From contig NZ_JAKWJU010000002.1 in the NCBI RefSeq assembly GCF_022524345.1, forward strand, positions 186,001-250,000: 64,000 bases of DNA, given 5' to 3'. Shown here piece by piece: positions 1-13,899 of the stretch (the stretch's first letter is position 1; every line of letters starts with the position of its first letter). The notes below the pieces were generated by a model, which had not been told where the DNA came from, ran no database searches, and saw nothing but the letters and a program-made list of their open reading frames with translations. This DNA is from Streptomyces marispadix (GTDB lineage Bacteria; Actinomycetota; Actinomycetes; Streptomycetales; Streptomycetaceae). A program made the position numbers and the translations under genes.

Positions 1-2008
1 GCTGCCGCGGCGTCGCCGAGGCGGCTCCGGGGCCGCGTGTGAGGGCGTCGAGCCGGGTGCCGGTCACGCCGGTGCCGGACGCCGGTTCCCGCTCCAGGCG
101 GTCCTCGTCCTGTCCTGAGGTCTCGGTGAGAATCCTGCCGGGGACGAGTACGACGGCCGTGGTGCCGCCGTACGGGGAGGGCTGGAGGGAGACGCGCACG
201 CCCTGGCGCTGGGCGAGCCGGGAGACCACGAACAGGCCGAGGCGGTCGGTGTCGGAGAGTTCGAACTCGGGGGTCTCCGCGAGCCGCAGGTTCGCCTCCA
301 GCAGCGCGTCGGCGGCCATGCCGAGTCCGCGGTCGTGGATCTCCAGGGTGTAGCCGTTCGCCACGCGTTCACCGAGTACCTGGACTGCGGTGTGCGGCGG
401 GGAGAACACGGTGGCGTTCTCCAGCAGTTCGGCGATGAGGTGTGTGAGGTCGGCGACGGAACCGCCGTCGACGGCGAGCCGCGGCAGGCGGCGCACCTCG
501 ATCCGCTCGTAGTCCTCGACCTCGGAGACGGCGGCCCGTACGACGTCCATGAGCTGCACGGGCTTGCGCCACTGGCGGGAGGGTGCCGCGCCGGAGAGGA
601 TGACCAGGCCCTCGGCGTGGCGCCGCATGCGGGTCGTGAGGTGGTCGAGGCGGAAGAGGTCGGCGAGTTCGTCGGAGTCCTCGGTGCGGCGCTCCATGTG
701 GTCCAGGAGGCTCAACTGCCGGTGCAGCAGCACCTGGTTGCGGCGGGCGAGGTTGACGAACACCTCGGAGACCCCGCGCCGCATGCCTGCCTGCTTGACG
801 GCGGCCTCGACGGCCGCGCGCTGAAGGGTGTTGACCGCCTGCCCGACCTGTCCGGCCTCGTCCTGCGGGTAGTCGAGCCTGGGCGCCTCGGTCTCGATGT
901 CGACGGTCTCGCCCGCCGCGAGACGGCGCATCACACTCGGCAGGCGTACGCCCGCTGCCTCCTGGGCCTCTCTGCGCAGCGTGCGCAGATCGCGCACGAG
1001 GCCGCGGCCGACGCGGAAGGAGATGACGATCGAGGCGATGACGGCGGCGGCTCCGAGCACCGCGGCGATACCGGCCTGGGTGAGCACCTTCGTGGCGTCG
1101 GGCTGCACGCGCTGCTCGTAGCGGTCGCGGGCCTCGAAGTTCATGCGCTCCAGGTCGGTGAGGACGGTGGAGGTGGCCGACTGCCAGCGCTCGGCGTTGA
1201 CGACGCCCTGGGTGCCGCGGCTGCCGGCGGCGATGATGGCGTCCTCGTAGCTGCGCAGCGTGCGGCCGTCGGTGCCGTTCCAGTACGAGTCGTAGAACTG
1301 CCGTTCCTCGGCGGGCAGTTCGGCGAGGGTCGTCTCGTAGGTGAGGTTGCGTTCGGCCACGCGGTCGGAGAACGCGCGCCGGTCGCCCTTGGTCATCTCC
1401 CCGGAGGCGAGTGCCGCCGCCATCAGCGCGTCCTCGCGGGCGAGATACTCGCGGGCGCGTACGAGACCGACGAGGGCGCGGCCCTGCTTGTCGAGGTCGA
1501 CGTCGTCGATGCCGCCGAGCGCGCTGAGGAACGTGTAGCAGGGGTCGATGAGTTCGTTGTACGCCTGGAAGGCGCCGCCGCGGGTGAGGGTGCTCTCCTC
1601 CGCCTTGCGGATCTTCTTCAGGCCCGCCAGCTTGTCCAGCATCACGTCGAGGCGCTGCTGTGTGCTGCCGGTGAGCTGCGAACGCAGCCCGGGGGTACGG
1701 GCGTTGGCGCGCAGCTTGGCTATCTGGGCGTCCGTGTCCCTCTGTTGCTTCTTGAGCTGGGACATCGCCTCGGACCCGCGGGGGTCGGCGAGGTAGACCA
1801 TGACCTGCCGGCGCTCACGCTGGAGGGCTTGCGCCGCGTCCTGCGCAGGGTCGCCCACCTTGTCGACGGTGCTGACCACGTCGAGCAGTTCGCGGGCCTC
1901 ACGGCCCGTCACATACGTGGCGAGGGCCCACAGGGACACCAGCGACAGCAGCGGCACCAGGAGCAGCGCCACGATCTTCCGGCGGATCGACCTACCGCGC
2001 AAGCGCAT
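1..2008 (-). CDS. NIT-domain sensor histidine kinase (3' end outside window)
   Basis: Membrane sensor kinase of the large Streptomyces family that opens conservon-type operons. The ATG follows an excellent GGGGAGG ribosome site. About 669 residues are visible and the frame is still open at the window edge. A first membrane segment lies at about residues 12-31. A long extracytoplasmic helical region follows and resembles the nitrate/nitrite-sensing NIT domain. A second membrane segment lies at about 309-328, then a HAMP-like linker. The H-box-like helix region contains LARRNQVLLHRQLSLLDHME. The ATPase N-box LLENATVFSPP is near residue 529 and a G-box (RGLGMA) near 563. In conservons the next genes encode roadblock and GTPase proteins, but those would lie beyond base 1 and cannot be checked. 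The ligand is unknown. Confidence 0.88.
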   Translation of the reverse strand, partial: MRLRGRSIRRKIVALLLVPLLSLVSLWALATYVTGREARELLDVVSTVDKVGDPAQDAAQALQRERRQVMVYLADPRGSEAMSQLKKQQRDTDAQIAKLRANARTPGLRSQLTGSTQQRLDVMLDKLAGLKKIRKAEESTLTRGGAFQAYNELIDPCYTFLSALGGIDDVDLDKQGRALVGLVRAREYLAREDALMAAALASGEMTKGDRRAFSDRVAERNLTYETTLAELPAEERQFYDSYWNGTDGRTLRSYEDAIIAAGSRGTQGVVNAERWQSATSTVLTDLERMNFEARDRYEQRVQPDATKVLTQAGIAAVLGAAAVIASIVISFRVGRGLVRDLRTLRREAQEAAGVRLPSVMRRLAAGETVDIETEAPRLDYPQDEAGQVGQAVNTLQRAAVEAAVKQAGMRRGVSEVFVNLARRNQVLLHRQLSLLDHMERRTEDSDELADLFRLDHLTTRMRRHAEGLVILSGAAPSRQWRKPVQLMDVVRAAVSEVEDYERIEVRRLPRLAVDGGSVADLTHLIAELLENATVFSPPHTAVQVLGERVANGYTLEIHDRGLGMAADALLEANLRLAETPEFELSDTDRLGLFVVSRLAQRQGVRVSLQPSPYGGTTAVVLVPGRILTETSGQDEDRLEREPASGTGVTGTRLDALTRGPGAASATPRQ

Positions 2009-2242
2009 GGCCTCCCCTAGTCAACCCCGTCCGCCCGGGGCGAGTTCCGACAGCAAACGGCGTGAGCCTACTACTGACGCAGTACCGAGTCGTAGATGTG
2101 TCCGAGCGGGAAACCGGACGTCCAGGGTGCCTCATCCTGAGATGTCCTCCGATGCCCTACACGCGTTCCTGAATTGTGGCGCAGGCCACGGACGTGGAAA
2201 CGTGTGACCTGTGGGGGAACGTGAGGGGGGAGTGAAAGGATC

Positions 2243-2554
2243 ATGTACACGAGGTCCAGACTGCCGGATCCCGTACGTTCGGCGGCAGTTCGGGCGTTGG
2301 TCATAGTCGCGGTGACGCTGGTTCAGTTGATGATCGCCGTGCTGTGCTCGCTGGCGCAGGTGTGGCTGGCCTTTCCCATGGTGATCTCCACGGTGGTCAG
2401 CACCGTGGTGGCGACGTGGGCCGTGCTGGACGTATGGGTGACCCGCCAGGTGTGGCGGCAGCGGCACGGGGTGCTGTCGGAGCCCAGCAGCGCGGCGCGC
2501 CAGCGGGCCATGGAGAAGGCCAGGAGGAGGGCGCGGCACGGCCCGGACCGGTGA
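2243..2554 (+). CDS. small two-helix membrane protein, function unknown
   Basis: A 103-residue protein with two adjacent hydrophobic segments (about residues 19-38 and 41-66) and a strongly basic tail ending RRRARHGPDR. The topology suggests an integral membrane protein with a cytoplasmic positive tail. The start is an ATG preceded by a purine-rich GGGGGGAGTG stretch. Codon use has strong G/C at third positions, which supports real coding. It is divergent from the sensor kinase, whose start lies 234 bases away, and convergent with the SMC-like gene. I do not recognise a named family. Confidence 0.68.
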   Translation: MYTRSRLPDPVRSAAVRALVIVAVTLVQLMIAVLCSLAQVWLAFPMVISTVVSTVVATWAVLDVWVTRQVWRQRHGVLSEPSSAARQRAMEKARRRARHGPDR

Positions 2555-2722
2555 CGGCGGAACACCACGGGCCTGGGACGGCGGGGACCGGCCAGGGCGC
2601 CTTCCGCGTGGGTCAACCGGCCGTGTACGGACGGGAGTTGCGGCGCGAGAGCCGGACAGCGGCGCCCCGGCCAGGCGACCCGGGCAGAGTGATCGGCTCC
2701 CGCCGCTTCCCTGCCGCCCGTA

Positions 2723-5700
2723 TCACGACTCCCCGCGCTGACCGTCCGCCTGAGCCGGTACGCGGGGCTCCTGCGCGTGCTGTTCGGGCCTGCGGAACAT
2801 CCGTGTCGCGGTGATCTCGCCGTGCACGGGCTCCTCTTCGGGGTCCTGCTGCGGCAGTCCGGGCCGCAGATGCTCCTCGACGCTGATGTACTTCAGCCCG
2901 GCCCGCAGGTCCGCGTCGTTGCGCAGCCGGATGACGAGGGGGAACTCCGCGAGCGCCGTCGTGTCGAACAGCCCGGTGGTGTACAGCAGTTGGACGCCGA
3001 GCGCATCGGCGACGGCCCGTTGCAGCTCCAGAAGATACGTGGCGTTGGCGCGGCCGATGGGATTGTCGAGGAAGAGCGTCCCGGCGTGCCGGTCCCTCTC
3101 ATGGCCGCGGTCGTTGCCGCGCAGCGCCGCCATCGTGCAGTAGAGGGCGATGGCCGCGGTGAGCAGCTGGCCGCCGGAGAAGACGTCGCCCATCTGACCG
3201 ACCGGCACCCGCTCGGCACGCAGCACCGCGTCCGGCTTGAGGATCTCCACGGACACCCCGCGCGGTTGCAGCGCGGCGTGAACTCCCCGCAGCAGCAAGG
3301 ACATTCCGTCCCTGCGCAGGTCGGAGTTCTTCGCCACGGCGGTACGGGTGGCCTCGTCGACGACCTCTCCGAGGCGTTCGCTGAGGACCGCCTGGTCGGG
3401 ATCGTCGAAGCGGATGCGCAGGAACTCCTGGCCCGACCACTCCCCCAGGCCCTCCGGGAGCCGCGAGAGGCGCTGCGCTGAACGCAGCGTCGCCAGTGCC
3501 GACTCCACCAGGCCCCGCAGGCGGTCGACGATGCTGTCGCGGTTGCGCTCCAACTGCTCCAGCTCGTCGGTGAGTACGCGAAGACGCGGCGCGAACGCCT
3601 CGGCCCAGGCGGCGGCGTGGTCGGGCAGCGCCGCGGCGGGCAGTTCGCGGATCTGCTGCCGTGCGGGGGTGCGTACCTGTTCGTAGCGGGAGGAGTTGGC
3701 GTGGCGTACGAGCACGTCGGACGCCTCACGCACGGCCTGCTCGGCGGAGGAGAGGTCGGCGGCGCAGCCGCGCAGCGAACGGCGGGCCTCGGCGGCGGCC
3801 TGCCGGGCGTCGGCGGTGCTCCCGGGGTAGGGCTCGGGGCTCTCGCCCGGCTCCTCGGCGGCGGGCTGCTGGGGGTCGCGCAGCAGATCACGCAGCAGCG
3901 CGGCGGTCTCGTCGAACGCCTCCGCGGACTCCTCGGCGGCGCGGTGTGCACGCAGCAGGGCGGCGTGCTCCGTACGGGCTTCCTCCAACTGGTCGCTGTG
4001 AGCGGCCAGTTCGGCATTGGCCGTACGCAGCAGCCGCTGGGCCTCCTCCGCGTCGGCGGGCTCCATGCCCTCGGGGAGGCTCGTATGGCGGTCGCCCTCG
4101 GGCGGGGCCAGCCGCTCCGCCTCGCCGCGCAGCCTGCCGAGCTGTTCACTGGCGGCGGCGGCACGGGACTCCAGCATCTGCACCCGGGACTCGGCGCGTG
4201 CTGCGGCGGCCTGGCGGGCGGGGCCGTCCGCGCCGTCGGGGCCGTCCAGCAACTGCGCCGCGCGGGTGCGGACCTTGTTGGTGAGCCGGTCGAGGGCGGC
4301 GCGGGCGGCGGACTCGTCGCTCTCGGCGTGTGCCTGCTCGGCGCGGAGGTCGGCGCCGACACCCACCTTCTCGTACAGCCGGGAGGCCGAGCGGTACGCC
4401 TCACGGAGGGCGGGCAGCGAGGTGCCCTCGGGCGGCGGCAGTGTCTCGTCGATGTCGTCGGGGACGCCTGCGATCTGGGCGCGTTCGGCACGCAGTGCCC
4501 GTGCGGTGCGATGGGCGTCGTCGGCGGCCCGCTGCGCGGAACGCCTGTCCTCGTCGGCCGAGCGTGCCCTGGTCAGACATGTCGCGGCGCGCTCCTCGGC
4601 CTCGGCCGTCTCCTCGGCCAGTGTGCGCAGCCGGGTCTGCCATCCGCTGCGTTCGCGCAGGCGTGAGGCCAGGCCGGCGAGGGCGTCGGCGGAGCGGCGG
4701 GCGCGCTGTGCCTGTTCCTGGCGTTCGTCGCGCACGCGGGCGGCGTCCGCCGCGGCGGCCTTCGCGTCGTCATGTGCCGTACGGGCCTGTGCGAGAAGGG
4801 CGCCGGCGGCTTCCGCGGCTTCGCGGGCGGACTCGGCCGCCGCCGCCAGTTCCGCGAGGCGTCCCGGTGGGCAGCCCGTACGCCACGAGGCGAGCCGCGC
4901 CGCGAGCGTGCGGTCGGCGGCGAGCCGGGCGGCGAGGGCGCGGATCTCCTCGTCGCGGGCGAGGGCGCGGGCACGCAGCTCACGGCGCTCCTCGTCGGCG
5001 GCCTGCTCGTCGTGCATGGCCGGATTCGGCGGTACGAGGAAGACGTCGTCACGACGGGCGTCGCCGCCGCGCGGTACGGGTGCGAGCAGGGCCGCGGCGG
5101 TGCCGACCGCCACGGCGGAGCGGGGCAGCAACGCGGCGCCCGCCAGGGCCTCTTGGGCACGCCGATGGCTGGCGGGGTCGGTGATGACGACGCCGTCCAC
5201 CAGCTCGGGGCGGGCGGCGAGCACGTCGGCGTGGTCGGCCGGGTCGACGGCCTGGGCGAGATAGCGCCAGCCGGGAAGGGCCGGAACGCCGTGCTCGCCG
5301 AGGAATTCGACGGTCGCCGTGACGTCGGGTGCGGGCGGCAGCAGGCCGCCGTCGCCGAGGGCGCCGAGCATCCGGGAGTCCTCGGCGGCTGCGGTACGCA
5401 GTTCGAAGAGGTGCCGTTCGCAGCCGGTGACCGCGTCGTCGAGCAGTTCGGCGAGGGAGTCGCCTGCGGCGTCCAACTCCTCGGCGGTGAGGGCGCCGTG
5501 GGCCGAGCCGCCGCCGGTGAGGGCGCCGTCGGTCCCGTGCCGCCGTGCCGTGCGGGGCGGCGGCACGGAAGGGGCGCCCGCTGCGGCGGGCGGGGCCTCC
5601 TCGCCCCGCTCGTTCTGGCGGCGAGCCTGTCGGGGCAGCCCGAGGAGTTCCGCGAGGCGTTCCTCGGTGCCCAGGTCCTGCGCCGTACGGACCTCGGCGT

Positions 5701-7480
5701 GGTGGGCGGCGGAGGCCGCCTCGGCGGCGTCCTCGGCGCGGGCGGCGGCGAGTTCGGCGCGGGACAGCTCCGAACTCGCCTCCTGTGCACGTTCGTTGGC
5801 GCGGCGTGCGACCTCGCGTGCCTCCTCCCAGGCAGCGGCGGCGGCACGTTCGGCGTCCCCGGCCGCGAGCGCGGCGGCGGCGGGATCGGTGTCGCCGCCG
5901 TCCTCGGGCGTCTCGATCCAGCCTGCTCTTACGGCCTCCGCGGTCTCCCGTTCGACCTCGGCGAGGCGCTGGCGCAGATGGCCGGTCTCGCTGCGGGCAC
6001 GCTGGGCGTCGGTGGCGGCCGCGGTCGCGCCCCGGTGCGCCTCCTCCGAGGCGGTCTGGAGGGTGGCCGAACGCTCCTCTTCCTCGGCGGCGGTGCGCTC
6101 TGCCTCCTCGGCGGCGGCGTGCAGGGCCCGTACGAGGTCGGCGGCCGCGGTGGCCCGTGCGGCGAGGGCGGGCGCCGCGTCCCGCTCGGCCTCACGGATG
6201 GCGTCGGAGAGACGCGCGGCACGGTCGGCCGCGGTGCGGTGGGCGAGCACCGTCTCGGCGGCCTGCCACGCCGAGTGCAGCGTACGGGCGTCGGTCAGTT
6301 CACGGCGCTGCGCGGAGGCGGCCTTCTCCGCTCCTTCCAGTGCCAACGAGGCGTGCCGGTAGGCGAGTTCGGCGGCGATCAGGGACGAGCGCTCGCGGGT
6401 GGTACCGGTCTGTGCGACGGCCTCCTCCGCGTCCGCGACCTGACCGGCGAGTTCCTCGCTGTGCCCGCGTTCGGCGCTGCCCCGGGCCGACAGCCGGCGT
6501 ACGAGCGCGCGGGCGCGCCCCTCGGCCGCGGTGTGGATGTCGCGGGCGCGACCGCGCTGCTGAGCGGCCTCGGCGATGCGGCGCAGCAGATCCAGGGAAC
6601 CGGCGGTGAAGTCGCGTTCCGCGGTGAGTTCGGCACGGCGGCCCAGTTTGTGTGCGAAGCCGTGGACGAGATCGGCGAGGCCGTCGGTGTCGCGGGTGTC
6701 GGTGACGGCGCGCAGCAGCAGATCCGTGAAGTCGGAGTCGTTCTTCACGGCGAAGAGACCCGCGGCTTCGCCCTCGTCTGCGTTCATCTCCCGCTGGTAG
6801 CGGAAGAGTTCGGGGTCGAGGCCGAGGCCGGTGAGGCGTTCCGTCCAGCGTTCGTGCACCTCCTCCCAGGCGACGTCGAGATTCGGGTACGCCTTTCCCG
6901 TCTCGGTCAGCACGTCGCGGAAGCCCTTCATGGTCCGGCGGCGGCCACGCGCGGACGAGGCGCCCTCGGACGAGGGCCGCAGCGCGGCGGACTCGGCGAC
7001 GGGAAGCGAGTCGAGGCTCATGCCGGGGCCCGGCCGGAAGGAGTACCACGCTTCGGCGAACTTCCGTGGGTCGCTGGAGACTTGGCGTCCGCGCCACTCG
7101 CTGACCTTGCCGACGACGACGGTCTCGCCCGTACGGGTGTGCTGCCACTCCAGGGCCACGTGACCGCAGTCGTCGGCGAGCAGGAACTTGCGCAGCACCC
7201 CCGAGCTGGCGCCGCCGAGGGTGTTGCGGTGGCCGGGCAGCATCACGGAGAAGATCAGCTTCAGCAGGACGGACTTGCCGCCGCCGTTCTCCAGGAACAG
7301 CACCCCGGCGGGAGCGGGTCGGCGCGGCGGCTCACGGGGCTCGTCCTCGAAGAAGTCGGCCTGGGCGGGTGCCGGGCTGGGCACCGGGCCACCTACTCCG
7401 CGCAGATCCAGAACGGTGTCGGCGTAGCGCGCACCGGCCGGGCCGATGGAGTAGAGACGGATCCGGGACAGCTCGTACAT
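2723..7480 (-). CDS. SMC-like (MukB/JetC-type) coiled-coil ATPase
   Basis: A 1585-residue P-loop ATPase with split ABC head halves and long Ala/Glu/Arg-rich coiled coils, the layout of SMC, MukB, MksB and Wadjet JetC proteins. The first strand IRLYSIGPAG leads to the Walker A VLFLENGGGKSVLL (GGGKS at residues 66-70). Two long coiled-coil arms flank a globular hinge-like region around residues 750-900. The C-terminal head carries the signature FSGGQ (about 1434-1438) and a Walker B LFLDNPIG (about 1469-1476). The residue after the Walker B Asp is Asn where SMC proteins have Glu, so ATP hydrolysis may differ. The ATG at 7480 begins the conserved head strand; the frame stays open further upstream but that stretch is low-complexity and overlaps the neighbouring gene. 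Two candidate partners lie upstream on the same strand. I cannot distinguish chromosome organisation from plasmid or phage defence. Confidence 0.85.
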   Translation of the reverse strand: MYELSRIRLYSIGPAGARYADTVLDLRGVGGPVPSPAPAQADFFEDEPREPPRRPAPAGVLFLENGGGKSVLLKLIFSVMLPGHRNTLGGASSGVLRKFLLADDCGHVALEWQHTRTGETVVVGKVSEWRGRQVSSDPRKFAEAWYSFRPGPGMSLDSLPVAESAALRPSSEGASSARGRRRTMKGFRDVLTETGKAYPNLDVAWEEVHERWTERLTGLGLDPELFRYQREMNADEGEAAGLFAVKNDSDFTDLLLRAVTDTRDTDGLADLVHGFAHKLGRRAELTAERDFTAGSLDLLRRIAEAAQQRGRARDIHTAAEGRARALVRRLSARGSAERGHSEELAGQVADAEEAVAQTGTTRERSSLIAAELAYRHASLALEGAEKAASAQRRELTDARTLHSAWQAAETVLAHRTAADRAARLSDAIREAERDAAPALAARATAAADLVRALHAAAEEAERTAAEEEERSATLQTASEEAHRGATAAATDAQRARSETGHLRQRLAEVERETAEAVRAGWIETPEDGGDTDPAAAALAAGDAERAAAAAWEEAREVARRANERAQEASSELSRAELAAARAEDAAEAASAAHHAEVRTAQDLGTEERLAELLGLPRQARRQNERGEEAPPAAAGAPSVPPPRTARRHGTDGALTGGGSAHGALTAEELDAAGDSLAELLDDAVTGCERHLFELRTAAAEDSRMLGALGDGGLLPPAPDVTATVEFLGEHGVPALPGWRYLAQAVDPADHADVLAARPELVDGVVITDPASHRRAQEALAGAALLPRSAVAVGTAAALLAPVPRGGDARRDDVFLVPPNPAMHDEQAADEERRELRARALARDEEIRALAARLAADRTLAARLASWRTGCPPGRLAELAAAAESAREAAEAAGALLAQARTAHDDAKAAAADAARVRDERQEQAQRARRSADALAGLASRLRERSGWQTRLRTLAEETAEAEERAATCLTRARSADEDRRSAQRAADDAHRTARALRAERAQIAGVPDDIDETLPPPEGTSLPALREAYRSASRLYEKVGVGADLRAEQAHAESDESAARAALDRLTNKVRTRAAQLLDGPDGADGPARQAAAARAESRVQMLESRAAAASEQLGRLRGEAERLAPPEGDRHTSLPEGMEPADAEEAQRLLRTANAELAAHSDQLEEARTEHAALLRAHRAAEESAEAFDETAALLRDLLRDPQQPAAEEPGESPEPYPGSTADARQAAAEARRSLRGCAADLSSAEQAVREASDVLVRHANSSRYEQVRTPARQQIRELPAAALPDHAAAWAEAFAPRLRVLTDELEQLERNRDSIVDRLRGLVESALATLRSAQRLSRLPEGLGEWSGQEFLRIRFDDPDQAVLSERLGEVVDEATRTAVAKNSDLRRDGMSLLLRGVHAALQPRGVSVEILKPDAVLRAERVPVGQMGDVFSGGQLLTAAIALYCTMAALRGNDRGHERDRHAGTLFLDNPIGRANATYLLELQRAVADALGVQLLYTTGLFDTTALAEFPLVIRLRNDADLRAGLKYISVEEHLRPGLPQQDPEEEPVHGEITATRMFRRPEQHAQEPRVPAQADGQRGES

Positions 7481-7545
7481 GGCGGCGGGGCTCTCGGTGG
7501 TCAGGGGTCGGTCGGGGCGGCCTGTGCTGTGGTCGGGGTGGTCGG

Positions 7546-8478
7546 TCAGGTGTGGAACGGGAGGCCCGCGTCGGCCGCGACCTCCAAGTCGTCGCCGTCC
7601 GTGGGCGGTACGAGCGTCGCCGTGCCGTCGCTGACGGGGACGACGCCCAGCTCGAGCAGCTCGGACATGGCCGCGCTGCCCGCCATGTCGCGGACCTGGA
7701 GCTGGTACCGGGCCGTGGTGCGGTAGGTGCCTCCGGCGTCGTCGCCCGTGCGCTGGAGGAACCCGGAGTCGACGAGGAAGGCGACGGCCTTGCCGATGAT
7801 GCCGGTCGTCGAACCGGCAAGCCTGCGGGCGTCCTTGGTGGCCCCGGTGGCGCTGCGCCGTGCGTAGACCCGCCAGGCGGCCTCCAGCCCTGGAGCGTCC
7901 GTGGCCGGGTCGGCGTTCTCCCCCGCCTCCTCGGCGCGCTCCGCCAGCCGCCTGCACGCCTGACGGACGAAGGAGTCCACTCCGTTGACCGTGATACGGC
8001 CGATGTAGGCGTCGTCGGCGAGGTCTTCGGGGCGGGGGAAGGCCATGGCGGCGACGGCCAGATGAGCCAGTCCGTGCAGGAAGCGGTCCGCGGAGTCGGC
8101 GTTGGCGCGGCGAGCGTAGTCGCCCATGCGGACGGCGAAGACGGAGTCCTCGTCCGCGGCGAGCGCCATTCCGGCGCGGGTGGAGACCTCCAGGACGACC
8201 AGGCCGAGGCCGGTGGCGACCGCGTCGGCGAGGCGGGCGAAGGCAGGCTCGTCGCGGTAGCGCCGCAGCAGGCCCGCGTATTCGGCGTCGCGGGCGGGGA
8301 GCAGCTTGGGATGCAGCCCGAAGGAGACCAGGCGTGCGGCGTCCGCGGTGTCGGCGGGAGTGACCGGCGACTGGGGCGCGCGGGAGGCGGAGGCATCGCC
8401 CTGCGCGGTCTCCTGAGCGGTCGGGGTCACGGAGCCCGTGGAGGGGAGGGCGGCGTCCTCGTCGGGGTGGTCGGTCAC
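7546..8478 (-). CDS. probable MukE/JetB-like subunit of the SMC complex
   Basis: A 310-residue protein starting with GTG behind an AGGAG motif about ten bases away; its stop lies 65 bases before the SMC-like start. The first 40 residues are acidic and disordered. The rest is helical, with a basic segment (RRSATGATKDARRLAG) and a short helix-turn-helix-like stretch GIIGKAVAFLVDSGFLQRTGD near residues 225-250. A beta-rich segment follows, resembling the winged-helix folds of MukE/MksE/JetB. The assignment rests on size, position between a larger partner gene and the SMC gene, and this winged-helix-like segment, not on a recognised signature. An independent conserved hypothetical is the alternative. 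Joint transcription with the SMC gene is likely given the short gap. Confidence 0.7.
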   Translation of the reverse strand: MTDHPDEDAALPSTGSVTPTAQETAQGDASASRAPQSPVTPADTADAARLVSFGLHPKLLPARDAEYAGLLRRYRDEPAFARLADAVATGLGLVVLEVSTRAGMALAADEDSVFAVRMGDYARRANADSADRFLHGLAHLAVAAMAFPRPEDLADDAYIGRITVNGVDSFVRQACRRLAERAEEAGENADPATDAPGLEAAWRVYARRSATGATKDARRLAGSTTGIIGKAVAFLVDSGFLQRTGDDAGGTYRTTARYQLQVRDMAGSAAMSELLELGVVPVSDGTATLVPPTDGDDLEVAADAGLPFHT

Positions 8479-8632
8479 TGGTGCGTCGCTCCTGCGCCTC
8501 GGGGCATCGTCGTGCCGGTGTCGGGGTGCCGGTCGTGGGGCCGGTCGTCGTGGTGCCGGTCGCCGTCGTCGTGCCGGTCATGGCCGTGGCCGGTCACCGT
8601 GGTGCCCGCCGTGGCCGTCGCCGTCCGGTGCC
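8479..8632. repeat. low-complexity spacer of GTC/GGT-like runs
   Basis: This gap between the two SMC-partner genes consists largely of degenerate repeats of GTCGTGGTGCCGGTCGCC-like sequence. On the minus strand it reads as runs of Thr and Gly, which explains why a frame stays open through it, but it does not look like a protein. I see no promoter in it. Confidence 0.5.
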
Positions 8633-10243
8633 TCATGCCGCCCCCTCTCGGGTGTCCCGTGCCTCGTAGCCCTCGTGGCTCTCGTAGCCCTCGTGGCTCT
8701 CGTAGCCCTCGTGGCTCCCGCGCTCCTCGTGGTCGTCCCGGCCGTCGTGGCCCGGCGGCGCACCCCCCACGTCCAGTTCGGCCGTGCCGACGATCAGGTC
8801 GGCTCCTCCGAACTCCTCGTCCTCCAGCTCCGCGCCGTCGTCCACGGCGAACAGCAGCCGCCGCTCGCCCTGACGGTGCGCCGTGCCCACCGGCGGGCTC
8901 GCCGCATGAACCGCCAACAGGCTGACGAGGTACGGCAGTTCGGGATCGAGGCGCCTGGCGTCGGCGAGCAGCCCCGAGAGCCTGCGCGGTGCGTCGGCGG
9001 GCAGGTCCAGCAGCTCCATCGCCGTGTCGAGCTGCTCTTCGCTGAACCGGCTGTCGTCGGGGGTCGCGATCAGATCCGGCTCCGGCATCTCCGCGCCCAG
9101 GTGCTCGCGGGGAGCGGGCGGCGTGAGCAGGATCTCCGTGAGGTCGCCCAGCCGTACGGCACCGGGGGTGCGCAGGCCCGCGCCCCGCACGAAGAAGGCG
9201 TCGGTGACCGCTACGGCACGCTCCACGGGCAACGGCAGTACGGGCGCGAGGAGTTGGCCGTAGAGGTCGATGCCCGCGCGGGCGGCGGGCGGTGCGAACG
9301 CCTGGCGGTCCTGCTCGGCGCGGAAGAGCGGCCCGGCCGCCAGCAGCCGCGACTGGAGCTGGGTGTGGCGGCGGATGCAGTCCTTGACGATGTCGACGAG
9401 TTCGGCCGCGCGGCGCCTGTGGTCGGGGCCGCGCTCGGTGGCGGCCTCGTCGCGGGCGCGGCGGATGTTGGTGAGGATCGCGTTCTCATGGCGGTAGCGC
9501 TCGGCGACGTGGTCCAGGGCCTCGCCGATCATGTCGGGGACGCCGCGCAGCCAGTCGACGGCGCGCACGTCCCGGCGGGTGGCCTCCAGGGTGCGGCGCA
9601 GCGTCTCGGCGTACTGCACAGTGCGGTAGCGGGCCTGTTCGGCCGCGAGTTGGGCGTCGGCGAGGCGCCCGCGGCTGACGAGGACCTCCAGTTTGACCTC
9701 GGCCGCGATCTGGGCGCTGGTGACGTCTGTGTCGAGCGCGCCCACGAGGACGTTGACCGCTTCGTCGGTGGTACGCAGATACACGCTGCCGCCGGGCCCT
9801 GGGACCTCCTCGATGAGCTTGAAGTCGTAGTCGCGGCGCACATAGGAGCCCTCAGGCCCGAACGTGCCGTAGACGGCGCGGAATCCGCGGTCGACGCTGC
9901 CCACGTTCAGCAGGTTCTCCAGCACCCAGCGGGCCACGCGCTCGTGTTCGGCCGCGGGCCTGGAGGGCGCCTGGGCGGCGACGCGGGGCAGCAGCCTCGC
10001 CACGACGTCCTCGTGGTCGGCACCGGTGTCGAAGTCCATCTGGAGGGTGACGAGGTCGATGGCGCTGAGGGCGACCTCCGCCATGGCGTAAGTGCTGTAC
10101 TCCCCCGCGAGGTTGGCCTTGCGGACGTCCAGGTCGTGCAGCGGAGCCGTGCAGGCCAGGGCGCGAAGCCGCCGCGCGAGCCCCTCGTCGGCCGCGGGGC
10201 CGGGGGCCGGGGACGGGAGGATCGGCGGGGCGTGCTCAGTCAC
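8633..10243 (-). CDS. probable kleisin-like (MukF/JetA-type) subunit of the SMC complex
   Basis: A 536-residue mostly helical protein placed first in the three-gene SMC run, as MukF, MksF and JetA often are. The N-terminal 200 residues are compact and include the segment YDFKLIEEVPGPGGSVYLRT. A long helical middle (about 200-330) is rich in Arg and Glu, including RYRTVQYAETLRRTLEATRR. The C-terminal 60 residues are acidic and end in three copies of SHEGYE. I chose the GTG at 10243 (MTEHAPP); GTG at 10252 or TTG at 10273 would add 3 or 10 residues, and none has a clear ribosome site, so a leaderless transcript is possible. The kleisin assignment is inferred from size, gene order and helical architecture. 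No nuclease partner (JetD) is visible in this window. Confidence 0.68.
   Translation of the reverse strand: MTEHAPPILPSPAPGPAADEGLARRLRALACTAPLHDLDVRKANLAGEYSTYAMAEVALSAIDLVTLQMDFDTGADHEDVVARLLPRVAAQAPSRPAAEHERVARWVLENLLNVGSVDRGFRAVYGTFGPEGSYVRRDYDFKLIEEVPGPGGSVYLRTTDEAVNVLVGALDTDVTSAQIAAEVKLEVLVSRGRLADAQLAAEQARYRTVQYAETLRRTLEATRRDVRAVDWLRGVPDMIGEALDHVAERYRHENAILTNIRRARDEAATERGPDHRRRAAELVDIVKDCIRRHTQLQSRLLAAGPLFRAEQDRQAFAPPAARAGIDLYGQLLAPVLPLPVERAVAVTDAFFVRGAGLRTPGAVRLGDLTEILLTPPAPREHLGAEMPEPDLIATPDDSRFSEEQLDTAMELLDLPADAPRRLSGLLADARRLDPELPYLVSLLAVHAASPPVGTAHRQGERRLLFAVDDGAELEDEEFGGADLIVGTAELDVGGAPPGHDGRDDHEERGSHEGYESHEGYESHEGYEARDTREGAA
8664..8717. repeat. three perfect 18-bp tandem repeats in the kleisin-like gene
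   Basis: The 18-bp unit TCGTAGCCCTCGTGGCTC occurs three times head to tail. On the coding (minus) strand it encodes three copies of the hexapeptide SHEGYE near the C-terminus of the kleisin-like protein. Because the unit is a multiple of three, copy-number change would lengthen or shorten the tail without breaking the frame. Confidence 0.9.
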
Positions 10244-10341
10244 GACGGACACACTATGCGCTGGCACCGACAACGCCCGGAACGGGCCCTGATGTCGCTT
10301 ACATGACCAGCGCGCGGCTCCGACTGCACGCCCCGCTACGG

Positions 10342-10442
10342 CAGTTCACGTCGGACGACGGCAAGTCCCTCGCGGCCGGGGCGAGTCACGTGCGGGGCGT
10401 CGTCGTCCGGCGGGGAAGGGTCCGGCGGCGACAGTTCACGTC
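10342..10442. promoter_or_regulatory. direct repeats CAGTTCACGTC spaced exactly 90 bp
   Basis: The 11-mer CAGTTCACGTC occurs at 10342-10352 and again at 10432-10442, between the HEAT-type gene and the kleisin-like gene. The copies share further flanking similarity. This gap of roughly 230 bp is where a promoter for the SMC operon would sit, so the repeats may be operator sites. They could also be remnants of a duplication. Confidence 0.35.
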
Positions 10443-10473
10443 CGCGGCGGCGCCGCCGCGGGCCCGCAGGTCC

Positions 10474-11946
10474 TCAACGTCCGCTCTCCGGGCTGAGCCT
10501 GCCTCGCACCGCGCTCTGCACACCGGCCTCCTCGGCCGGATCGGAGGCGAGCCTGCGCAGCCGTTCGACGACCCGTTCGTCTCCCGTAGCCGCGTACTCC
10601 GCCGCGAGGGCACGGGTGGTCTCCTCACAGTCCCACAGGCACTCCACGGCGAAGCCCGCCGGGAACGAGGGATCGGTGAGGGCGAGCGCACCGGCCGCGC
10701 GACCGCGCAACTGCGAGGAGGACGTCTCCCGGTAGATGTGCCGCAGCACGGGAGCCGCGCTGTCGACGCCGAGCCGTCCCACGCCGTCGACCAGCGGCCA
10801 CAGGGCGTCGCTGTCGGGTCCCTCCTTGCGTACGGTGCGGCGCAGCGCGCCCAGTACGGCACCGGCGTCCTGTGCCCCTCCGCAGCACGCCAGCATCTCG
10901 GCGGCCACGGCCGTCAGGGACTCGGGCAGCGACCCCTCGGGCGCGGCGGCCCACTGGCGGGCGCGGACGATCGCGGCCGTGCTCCGCATGCGTGCGAACG
11001 CGCACAGCGCGGCACCGGAGACGGTCTCGCACGGGTCGGCGGCGGCCAGTTCGACGAGGTCGAGTGCTTCGGGGTCGCCCCGGTCGGCGAGGTGGCGCAG
11101 CGCCGCGGCGCGGGCGGCCTCGTAGGGGCCGCGGGCGGCGGCGAGCAGTTCCTCGCGGTCCTCCGGTCCCGCCACCGCGGAGAGGCACCGGGCGGCGGCG
11201 CCCTCGCGCGGTACGCGTGGATGCTGCTCGTATCCGTCCTGGGCCCAGGCGAGGACCTCGCGCACGCTCCAGCCGGGGCGGGGGCCCTCGGAGTGCAGCT
11301 GGCGCTGCCAGCGGTCGAAACAGCTTCGTTCGCGCACCCGTCGCAGCCGTTCGGCCTGTTCCGGGCGGTCCGGGTCCTCGGCCCACAGCCGCCATGGGCG
11401 GGGCTCGAAGGCGTCCCGTGCCGCCGCGGCGAGTTCGGCGTCGCCCTCCGGCGTCTGCGGGAACCGGGCGAGCACGGCGGGTCCGAGCAGTCGCAGCCCG
11501 GAGTCCTCGTCGCGGACGGCGAGTTCGTCCAGCGCCCACTGCCAGTTGGCGCCGGATGTGGCGTAGCGGCGCAGCAGTTCCATGGCCGCCGCGTTCTCAT
11601 ACGAGGCGAGGTGGCCGAGCACGGACAGGGCCAGGCCGGTGCGCGCCTCGCACTCGTCTGCCGAGGACAGGCCGTCCTCGGGTGCGAAGAGATGTTCCTC
11701 GATGTCGTCGAGCGAGGCGTCCAGTTCCATGTGGAGCCGTGCGTAGTAAAGGGAACGGTGCTCGATCTGCCAGTCCCGCCGCGGGTCGTGGAGCACACAG
11801 TGCCGCAGCGCGGCGAGCGCCTCGGCGCGCGGCGCCGCCAGCGCGTGCAGCGTGCCGTCGCCGCGGCCCCTCTGGAGGAGGCCGAGCAGCGTACCGCTGG
11901 GCGCTATGTCTGAATCGACGGAATCGGCGAACATAAGGGTCAGCAT
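10474..11946 (-). CDS. HEAT-repeat-like helical protein upstream of the SMC operon
   Basis: A 490-residue protein made almost entirely of short paired helices with Ala/Leu/Arg periodicity. Examples are AARAAALRHLADRGDPEALD, ETVSGAALCAFARM and TRALAAEYAATGDERVVERL, the pattern of HEAT or PBS-lyase repeats, over about residues 150-480. The first 70 residues are different and may form a cap. The start is the ATG at 11946; an in-frame ATG at 11934 is possible and neither has a strong ribosome site. The gene lies upstream of the SMC-like operon on the same strand, about 230 bases before the kleisin-like start. HEAT proteins are regulatory subunits of condensin and cohesin in eukaryotes, so an association here is tempting but is inference only. 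Confidence 0.72.
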   Translation of the reverse strand: MLTLMFADSVDSDIAPSGTLLGLLQRGRGDGTLHALAAPRAEALAALRHCVLHDPRRDWQIEHRSLYYARLHMELDASLDDIEEHLFAPEDGLSSADECEARTGLALSVLGHLASYENAAAMELLRRYATSGANWQWALDELAVRDEDSGLRLLGPAVLARFPQTPEGDAELAAAARDAFEPRPWRLWAEDPDRPEQAERLRRVRERSCFDRWQRQLHSEGPRPGWSVREVLAWAQDGYEQHPRVPREGAAARCLSAVAGPEDREELLAAARGPYEAARAAALRHLADRGDPEALDLVELAAADPCETVSGAALCAFARMRSTAAIVRARQWAAAPEGSLPESLTAVAAEMLACCGGAQDAGAVLGALRRTVRKEGPDSDALWPLVDGVGRLGVDSAAPVLRHIYRETSSSQLRGRAAGALALTDPSFPAGFAVECLWDCEETTRALAAEYAATGDERVVERLRRLASDPAEEAGVQSAVRGRLSPESGR

Positions 11947-12309
11947 CCGGTGCGGGGTGTTCGACTGGCAACGGGATTTCCGTTGACCAGCATCCTTGCC
12001 GGTGAGCTTCGTTCTACTCCTGGGTGCGCGGCGGCATACGGTGCCCGGCGGCGTAAAAGCGGAATGCCGGTACGGGGGGTACGGAGCGGGAGCCTACCGT
12101 CAGTCACCGCCCGTGCCACCCGCCCCCGCGGCGGACGGCTCCCGGCGGACGCCGGGAGCGCAGGCCCGCAGGGGCCCGGACCTGCCCCGGCATGCGGCGA
12201 CATATGTCCCCAGCACCACCGGAACGGGTATCGGGAAACCACTTACGGCCCGTCGCAGGCTGTGCAACAGTCGTAACCGAGCCCTCACTTCGCGTATCCG
12301 GAGATCTCG
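11947..12309. other. divergent intergenic region with a hairpin
   Basis: This region separates the minus-strand HEAT-type gene from the plus-strand phosphatase and probably carries both promoters. It contains a perfect hairpin (annotated separately) and, near 12223, the hexamer GGGTAT, which resembles the -10 of Streptomyces sigma-B-type promoters. I cannot find a convincing matching -35. No coding frame in it looks real. Confidence 0.4.
12138..12159. other. perfect 9-bp stem hairpin in divergent promoter region
   Basis: The arms GCTCCCGGC and GCCGGGAGC flank a 4-base loop. It lies about 150 bases upstream of the phosphatase start. It could attenuate one transcript, insulate the two divergent genes or act as a protein-binding dyad; position alone does not decide. 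Confidence 0.5.
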
Positions 12310-13899
12310 ATGCCCTCCCACACCGATGCGGACCGCCCGGTGTCCCCACCTCCACCGCGAGGCGTGCTGGACGACCTCATCACACAGGCGCGGCAGCTTC
12401 GCGGCAGCATCGACGCCGTGCGTCCGAGAGCGTCGGACGAGGACGGGCACGAGGCAGAGGAGCCCGCCCGGCGCTGGCAGCGCGCGCTGTGCGATCTCGC
12501 CGCCCACCAGCTCGACGACCTCGGCGAACACCTCGGCCAGTTACGAGAGGCAGGGCTCGGCCCTTGCGGTCCTTACGACGCGGAGACGGCCGCGTACGGC
12601 GCCGGCACCGAAGCCCGCACGGGGAACGCGGACCGCGCAGACGGCGCTGAGGACGCCGGGAGCGCGGGCGACTGCGTATATGCGTCCGGCACGGCCACCG
12701 GCACGCTCACCAGCAGGGCGGGCAGCGCCGAGTGGAATCTGCTGACCGACGAGGTGTCCTGGTCGCAGGAGCTGTACGCGATCTTCGGGCGGACCGCCGA
12801 CGACGGCCCACTCTCCCTCGACGAGCTGCCCTCCTGGGTGCTCCCCGACGACCAGCCGCCGCTGGCCGCCGCCGTGACGGACTGCCTGGTGGACGGCAGG
12901 CCCATCGACCAGGAGTTCCGGATAATGCGTCCGGACGGCGCCGTGCGCAGCCTCCATCTGCTGGGCGAGCCGGTGCTCGACGGCCAGGGCGGTACGGCGT
13001 CGATGTGGGCGGTCGTCCGCGACGTCAGCGAGCTGCGCCGCAGCGAACTCGCCGTGCGCGAGATGGGCCGGAGCGTGCCCCGGAGGCGCGACCGGCGCCA
13101 CCCGTACGAGCGCGACGAAGGCGCGGACGTACAGGCCGAGCGCCGTCTCGCGGCCGAGCTCCAGGAGTCGGTGCTCCCGCCCTGGCAAGGCACCCGGCGG
13201 GTTCCGTACGACGGTCACGGCCGCGCAGGCGGCGAGGGCGCCCTCGACATCGCCTCGCACTATCTGCCGTCCGCCGCGAGCACCCTGATCGGCGGCGACT
13301 GGTACGACGCGCTCGACCTGCCCGACGGCGCCACTCTGCTGTCCGCGGGAGACCTCACGGGGCACGGCGTGGCCGCGGCCTCCGGAATGGCGATGCTGCT
13401 GGGGGCGGTGCGCGGCATGGCGTTCGCAGGGGTCGGTCCCGGCGCCCTGATGGGGCATCTGAACCGGCTGCTGGACGCCTCCGCTCAGCCCGCTCTCGGC
13501 AGCGCGGTGTGCTGCCGTTACGACCCTCGTGAGCGCACCCTCGTCTGGTCGCAGGCGGGCCATCCGGCGCCGCTGGTCTTCCGTGGCCGTACGGGCCGGG
13601 CGCTGAGCCCGCCGAGGGGCGTGCTGCTGGGCGCCGCGTGCGGAGCGGCGTACGGCGAGAGCACCGAAGTGCTGTGTCCGGGCGATGTGTTGGTGCTCTA
13701 CACCGACGGACTGGAGCCGCTGGCAGGGCAGTCGGGCTCTCCCGGCGGACCGCGCACCGCACCGGAGCGGCTGCTGCGTCTGGGGCCGCGCTTCGCGCAG
13801 GCCCGCTCGGCGCAGGAGTGCCTGCGTACCGTCGTCGAGGAGTTCGGCGGGGAACGCGAGAGCGACGCCTGTGTGCTGGTCGCCAGGGTGAGCGGCTGA
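12310..13899 (+). CDS. PAS-domain SpoIIE/RsbU-type PP2C phosphatase with a TTA codon
   Basis: A 529-residue cytoplasmic serine phosphatase. Residues 1-135 are a low-complexity helical leader. A PAS-like sensor follows (about 140-250, including WSQELYAIFG and EFRIMRPDGAVR). The C-terminal SpoIIE phosphatase domain (about 285-529) contains GGDWYDALDLPDG near 328, DLTGHGVAAASGMA near 348, QAGHPAPL near 415, LYTDGLEP near 463 and a final ESDACVLVAR. Metal-binding Asp residues are in place. Such enzymes usually dephosphorylate anti-anti-sigma factors. Residue 78 is Leu encoded by TTA, so translation should depend on the bldA tRNA and therefore on development. No cognate anti-sigma or antagonist gene is adjacent; the RsbW-like ATPase at 62.6 kb is distant. 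Confidence 0.92.
   Translation: MPSHTDADRPVSPPPPRGVLDDLITQARQLRGSIDAVRPRASDEDGHEAEEPARRWQRALCDLAAHQLDDLGEHLGQLREAGLGPCGPYDAETAAYGAGTEARTGNADRADGAEDAGSAGDCVYASGTATGTLTSRAGSAEWNLLTDEVSWSQELYAIFGRTADDGPLSLDELPSWVLPDDQPPLAAAVTDCLVDGRPIDQEFRIMRPDGAVRSLHLLGEPVLDGQGGTASMWAVVRDVSELRRSELAVREMGRSVPRRRDRRHPYERDEGADVQAERRLAAELQESVLPPWQGTRRVPYDGHGRAGGEGALDIASHYLPSAASTLIGGDWYDALDLPDGATLLSAGDLTGHGVAAASGMAMLLGAVRGMAFAGVGPGALMGHLNRLLDASAQPALGSAVCCRYDPRERTLVWSQAGHPAPLVFRGRTGRALSPPRGVLLGAACGAAYGESTEVLCPGDVLVLYTDGLEPLAGQSGSPGGPRTAPERLLRLGPRFAQARSAQECLRTVVEEFGGERESDACVLVARVSG

Follow-up and report, generated by a model that had tools for sequence, protein, structure and literature searches.

A JetABC operon of Wadjet type III without JetD in Streptomyces marispadix and its relatives: a candidate second SMC complex

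In Wadjet systems a loop-extruding, shape-sensing JetABC motor activates the nuclease JetD on small DNA circles, and MksBEF of Pseudomonas aeruginosa is regarded as probably JetABCD minus JetD, contributing to chromosome organisation (accessible part of PMC10586767). A DefenseFinder survey reported Wadjet in 42% of Actinobacteria, with enrichment near the ends of Streptomyces chromosomes; JetD was not found mentioned in the available part of that survey (PMC10482375). For Streptomyces itself, SMC is treated as the condensin and a second SMC complex goes unmentioned in the available parts of PMC13121528 and PMC8410768, and the 2021 paper, one of these two, calls the loss of smc mild. In the open-access literature (bioRxiv excluded), as far as its texts were available, no account was found of a family-wide JetABC without JetD in Streptomyces. 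Here, an operon of this kind was analysed in the window, i.e. the whole stretch of 64,000 nucleotides of S. marispadix DNA. The operon is interpreted, with a probability of roughly 0.6, as the motor half (JetA, JetB and JetC) of a Wadjet type III system that lost JetD and today functions as an additional SMC complex of the housekeeping kind. This reading is based on the analogy to MksBEF together with near-universal presence and purifying selection.

Organization of the locus and identity of the motor proteins

Four consecutive genes on the minus strand (2723..11946) encode a HEAT protein, JetA, JetB and JetC, and the gene order, strand and sizes given in the initial annotation were confirmed (Table 1). 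For JetA, either a GTG at 10243 (536 aa) or a TTG at 10273 (546 aa) may serve as start codon, and the N-termini of relatives favour 10243. An open reading frame of 1952 aa at 2723-8581 represents the jetC frame extended too far upstream. The intergenic gaps are about 200 bp between the HEAT gene and jetA, 154 bp between jetA and jetB and about 65 bp between jetB and jetC. A consensus scan of 2000-12400, a weak guide in Streptomyces, revealed no promoter or terminator. On its 6.68 Mb contig the locus lies some 195 kb from the end, and in the single-chromosome genomes compared it lies off-centre, at 2.9-20% from the contig end.

Table 1. Features of the JetABC locus and its neighbours (window coordinates).
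Feature	Position	Strand	Size and basis
jetC-like SMC ATPase, Wadjet type III JetC3, DUF3584-type	2723..7480	-	1585 aa, ATG; PADLOC JetC3, 1415.5 bits
Walker A of JetC, NGGGKS, residues 65-70	7271..7288	-	
ABC signature of JetC, SGGQ, residues 1435-1438	3167..3178	-	
Walker B of JetC, LFLDNPIG, residues 1469-1476	3053..3076	-	
jetB-like gene, presumed KITE/MukE-type subunit	7546..8478	-	310 aa, GTG; position and homology to JetB of JetD-bearing Wadjet III
jetA-like kleisin (predicted)	8633..10243	-	536 aa; PADLOC JetA3, 614.4 bits
HEAT-repeat protein, syntenic neighbour	10474..11946	-	490 aa; Pfam HEAT_2, linkage counts
Small gene, conserved neighbour just downstream of jetC	2243..2554	+	103 aa; in 44/68 core loci with enough downstream sequence (approximate)

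With the PADLOC models JetC and JetA were assigned to JetC3 and JetA3 of Wadjet type III (scores in Table 1). The proposal of a MukBEF- or Wadjet-like SMC operon without JetD was therewith borne out and made more precise. A Pfam family search of JetA, JetB and JetC gave no match. Walker A was present in all 89 core loci with JetC, and the three motifs occurred together in 75 of them, most of the others being apparently cut by contig ends. SMC proteins usually carry a catalytic glutamate in Walker B (DE); JetC has asparagine at this position (DNP). Since DNP was also found in 29 of 32 JetD-bearing relatives, it is considered a trait of type III and not a sign of decay. Residues 631-661 of JetC (5498-5590) form a low-complexity insert, which is missing from three aligned relatives, one of them JetD-less. 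A canonical SMC is additionally encoded in the same genome (937.5 bits).

The kleisin fold expected for the 536-residue protein was recovered in its predicted structure: MukEF and MukBEF entries made up seven of the first eight fold matches of the JetA model, which points to a MukF-like kleisin fold. The predicted structure of JetB, presumed to be a winged-helix (KITE) protein, reached a pLDDT of just 44, too low for judging its fold. JetB of the window had no match among the PADLOC models, and neither had JetB of the JetD-bearing locus L188; the JetB3 models were weakly matched by 7 of 26 aligned JetB relatives (best value over these models 4.5e-6). JetB of the window is nevertheless a homologue of the JetB proteins from Wadjet III loci that carry JetD. 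Sequence searches against solved structures with JetC, JetA and JetA/JetB profiles gave no match, the JetB rows being at chance level, and a Pfam search of the JetA and JetB relatives returned nothing informative. Among the matches listed, these relatives were nearly always annotated as hypothetical proteins. By eye, no IFDR-like JetD-contact motif was seen in JetB. The N-terminal tail of JetB (8373-8478) is apparently longer in the core and f18 copies than in most JetD-bearing copies, start codons being taken as predicted.

Occurrence of jetABC and absence of JetD

Of 295 Streptomyces genomes, 289 contained JetA (E <= 1e-10), among them 286 of the 288 good ones, with a single match in 266 of the 289; the best matches of G081, G121 and G171 were weaker. 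Within the Streptomycetaceae it was present in 148 of 150 genomes and in all 17 genera. The core type was found in 16 of the 17 genera; in genus g123, represented by the single genome G582, JetA occurs solely as a distant copy accompanied by JetD. Outside the family, JetA was found in 15 of 296 genomes of the class, all belonging to one other family (f18) and showing about 60-62% identity. A second query extended the same type to a third family (f46), where 31 of 100 genomes had it, spread over 14 of 46 genera; f46 is probably the Pseudonocardiaceae, given that P0292, listed under Amycolatopsis, is identical to the copy of the f46 genome G809. JetD-less JetABC is present in both of these further actinobacterial families.

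For ten pairs of Streptomycetaceae the dN/dS values were 0.02-0.23 for JetA, 0.07-0.26 for JetB and 0.10-0.24 for JetC, and values up to 0.33 were obtained in two f18 pairs; jetABC is under purifying selection. The missing JetD might suggest the remains of a degenerating defence system, but reading frames are open, motifs are intact and dN/dS is well below 1 in the family-wide sample, so that hardly any credence is left to this explanation. Likewise, the near-universal occurrence (289/295 and 148/150 genomes) speaks against the core copy being a mobile or patchy defence island.

JetD was not found at the window locus. The genome of S. marispadix gave no match to JetD_C (PF09983) and none to a 13-row profile of type III JetD (A1) in a loose first pass with 13 candidates scored. 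Named Streptomyces genomes supplied 80 core loci, some of which end inside or soon after JetC, and no JetD match was obtained in any of them. Twelve further core loci of the family (L247-L258) mostly end inside JetC and are uninformative in this respect, except for L247, which is the window's own. In f18, JetD was found in none of the 11 of 19 loci with at least 2.4 kb past JetC, the other eight ending too early; in f46 it was missing in 18 of 21 loci and kept in three. As far as the JetD family is concerned, the nuclease partner is absent.

JetD occurs beside divergent JetABC copies, where it adjoined JetC in 32 of 32 cases; almost every one of these copies came from a genome in which JetA had more than one match. 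As a positive control, JetD of L188 scored as PADLOC JetD3 with 392.8 bits. The divergent copy L183 is truncated where its contig stops, and in the same genome the end of a JetC together with JetD was found at the end of another contig (L265). Three single observations concern such loci. In G455, a second, broken JetC in several frames together with a partial JetD (L264) and the copy without JetD are located on different contigs. In G090 and G151, JetD-bearing Wadjet III loci with equal scores lie near both ends of one chromosome (L239 and L241), as if in terminal inverted repeats. Two loci with closely related JetA from one genus (L298 and L299; G832 and G864) differ in that only one carries JetD, apparently due to a recent loss or gain.

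An ordinary Wadjet system whose nuclease gene lies at a distant site of the genome has to be considered here. Of 295 Streptomyces genomes, 35 contain PF09983 genes unlinked to the core locus (those at L111-L131 were counted without typing), and a nuclease of another family would be invisible to the JetD profiles used. Against this, the genome of S. marispadix was negative with both JetD models, and A1 matched just 14 of 150 Streptomyces genomes, compared with a core locus in nearly all. Eleven of these matches were strong, all in genomes belonging to the 23 with more than one JetA match, and three were weak and partial. In 20 other genomes of the family A1 found a full JetD in G582, a weak partial match in G577 and none in 18; the weak partial matches include G577 (E 3e-5) and G446 (E 3e-4). 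A separately encoded nuclease is accordingly judged highly improbable.

The history of JetD was followed in three trees, all calculated from JetA alone with thinned rows. In the first tree (72 rows) the JetD-less Streptomycetaceae and f18 formed one clade (support 99/98) nested in JetD-bearing rows. This clade was no longer resolved in the second tree (78 rows), to which f46 rows had been added. In topology tests it was not rejected (p 0.34), and a grouping of Streptomycetaceae, f18 and the f46 type was rejected (p 0.001), with 13 of the 14 f46 rows being of unexamined JetD state. The last tree (62 rows), for which the JetD state was examined, gave the branch of Streptomycetaceae and f18 a support of 84/71 and needed five changes of JetD state, four of them forced by starred branches, which argues against one JetD loss for all JetD-less copies. 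As judged from these JetA sequences, at least four losses or regains of JetD would be needed; JetD thus probably disappeared on several occasions or came back after a loss, two courses that look the same in these trees. The Streptomycetaceae rows formed one clade in all three trees (72, 78 and 62 rows), which is consistent with inheritance within the family.

The HEAT gene and the surrounding genes

The upstream protein matched Pfam HEAT_2 with 29.4 bits (cut-off 27.7). Of 96 core loci, 65 had a HEAT gene in the roughly 10 kb upstream; it was not found in 20 loci in spite of at least 9 kb of upstream sequence, and 11 were too short to tell. The initial annotation had regarded this protein as a HEAT regulator of the complex and linkage of the genes across Streptomyces as a test. 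The jetABC genes are conserved and near-universal (JetA in 289/295 genomes), but the HEAT gene is mostly not adjacent to them, and the regulator is unsupported as stated: of the 65 loci, 13 have the gene adjacent (at most 600 bp away), whereas in 52 other genes fill a distance of 2.4-9.8 kb. By eye, the intervening genes resemble those of metabolism or regulation, for instance GntR- and LamB/YcsF-like ones.

A condensin-like SMC complex with the HEAT protein as its own fourth subunit is an improbable alternative. In the window the gene is located directly upstream on the same strand, the strand is shared in 65 of 65 loci, and the loci with adjacency include L250, L251 and L252, which are deep branches of the family, so that adjacency of HEAT gene and jetA may be ancestral. 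On the other hand, the two genes are apart in the majority of loci or the HEAT gene was not found at all (counts above), it was not found near the f18 copies, and it evolves faster than jetA, with identities in most loci of about 60-65% for HEAT versus about 84% for JetA. With adjacency in just 13 of 65 loci, it is regarded as a syntenic neighbour and at most a putative subunit.

Downstream of jetC, the small gene listed in Table 1 is followed by a histidine kinase gene, which was found in 42 of the 68 core loci that extend far enough downstream (approximate count). In this region (1-2008 of the window and 6661-11008 of L247) a sensor-kinase gene precedes a pair of short genes, of which one looks GTPase-like by eye; the arrangement resembles a Streptomyces conservon. 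No extra gene was conserved in both JetD-less families, and no defence or mobile genes linked to the core neighbourhood were seen.

Proposed function and comparison with known systems

By analogy with MukBEF and Wadjet, JetC dimers closed by JetA, with the help of JetB, would bind DNA and extrude loops, and with no nuclease the outcome would be folding of DNA and not cutting. We infer a chromosomal role for JetABC, which may act as a general chromosome organiser alongside canonical SMC, as MksBEF does in P. aeruginosa. As nearly all Streptomyces examined carry the JetD-less motor, the data suggest that a defence machine was converted into a standard chromosome-handling machine. The initial annotation had offered an actinobacterial chromosome organiser or an uncharacterised defence complex, and the former is the better of the two because jetABC is near-universal, conserved and mostly single copy.

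Near-universality and purifying selection would also be compatible with a conserved function in immunity or silencing. Further points that weigh against the chromosomal reading are the DNP of JetC (shared with JetD-bearing copies), the low-confidence model of JetB, the off-centre position of the locus and the unlinked JetD_C genes of 35 Streptomyces genomes. The main competing explanation is that JetABC still restricts foreign circular DNA, by loop extrusion with compaction or silencing instead of cutting, as proposed for Smc5/6 on viral circles. The family originates from an anti-plasmid system, and Streptomyces harbour many circular conjugative elements. Moreover, JetABC is a sensor of DNA shape and size and Smc5/6 compacts circular DNA, according to the accessible part of PMC10586767. 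Defence genes are usually patchy, however, which contrasts with JetA in 289 of 295 genomes, and no linked defence or mobile genes were seen in the neighbourhood; a silencing role is therefore considered unlikely.

A second housekeeping complex, the reading preferred here, could readily be redundant with smc, being present in nearly all species examined. More tentatively, and somewhat less likely than not, Wadjet III may have repeatedly shed its nuclease in actinobacteria to yield standing SMC motors; that of the Streptomycetaceae would be a second condensin of the whole family, perhaps including the HEAT protein as a subunit, which helps to fold the chromosome of these sporulating bacteria. 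If true, this would be a clear case of a transition from defence to housekeeping, in which nuclease-bearing and nuclease-free relatives can be compared, sometimes within one genome.

With Wadjet III (JetABCD) the operon shares the JetA3 and JetC3 profiles, the order jetA-jetB-jetC and the SMC ATPase motifs; it differs in the missing JetD, the low-complexity inserts of JetC and its near-universal, mostly single-copy occurrence, whereas Wadjet III is accessory. Unlike MukBEF, its proteins have no sequence match to solved structures, and canonical SMC is retained in this genome. The Corynebacterium glutamicum MksBEFG complex (Wadjet type I) is likewise an actinobacterial Muk-like SMC complex, but it carries the nuclease MksG and defends against plasmids (available part of PMC10123090). 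P. aeruginosa MksBEF is an SMC-kleisin-KITE complex without a nuclease beside canonical SMC, a composition that the Streptomyces complex, with JetB as presumed KITE subunit, probably shares; the Streptomyces complex differs from it in being actinobacterial and of the type III lineage.
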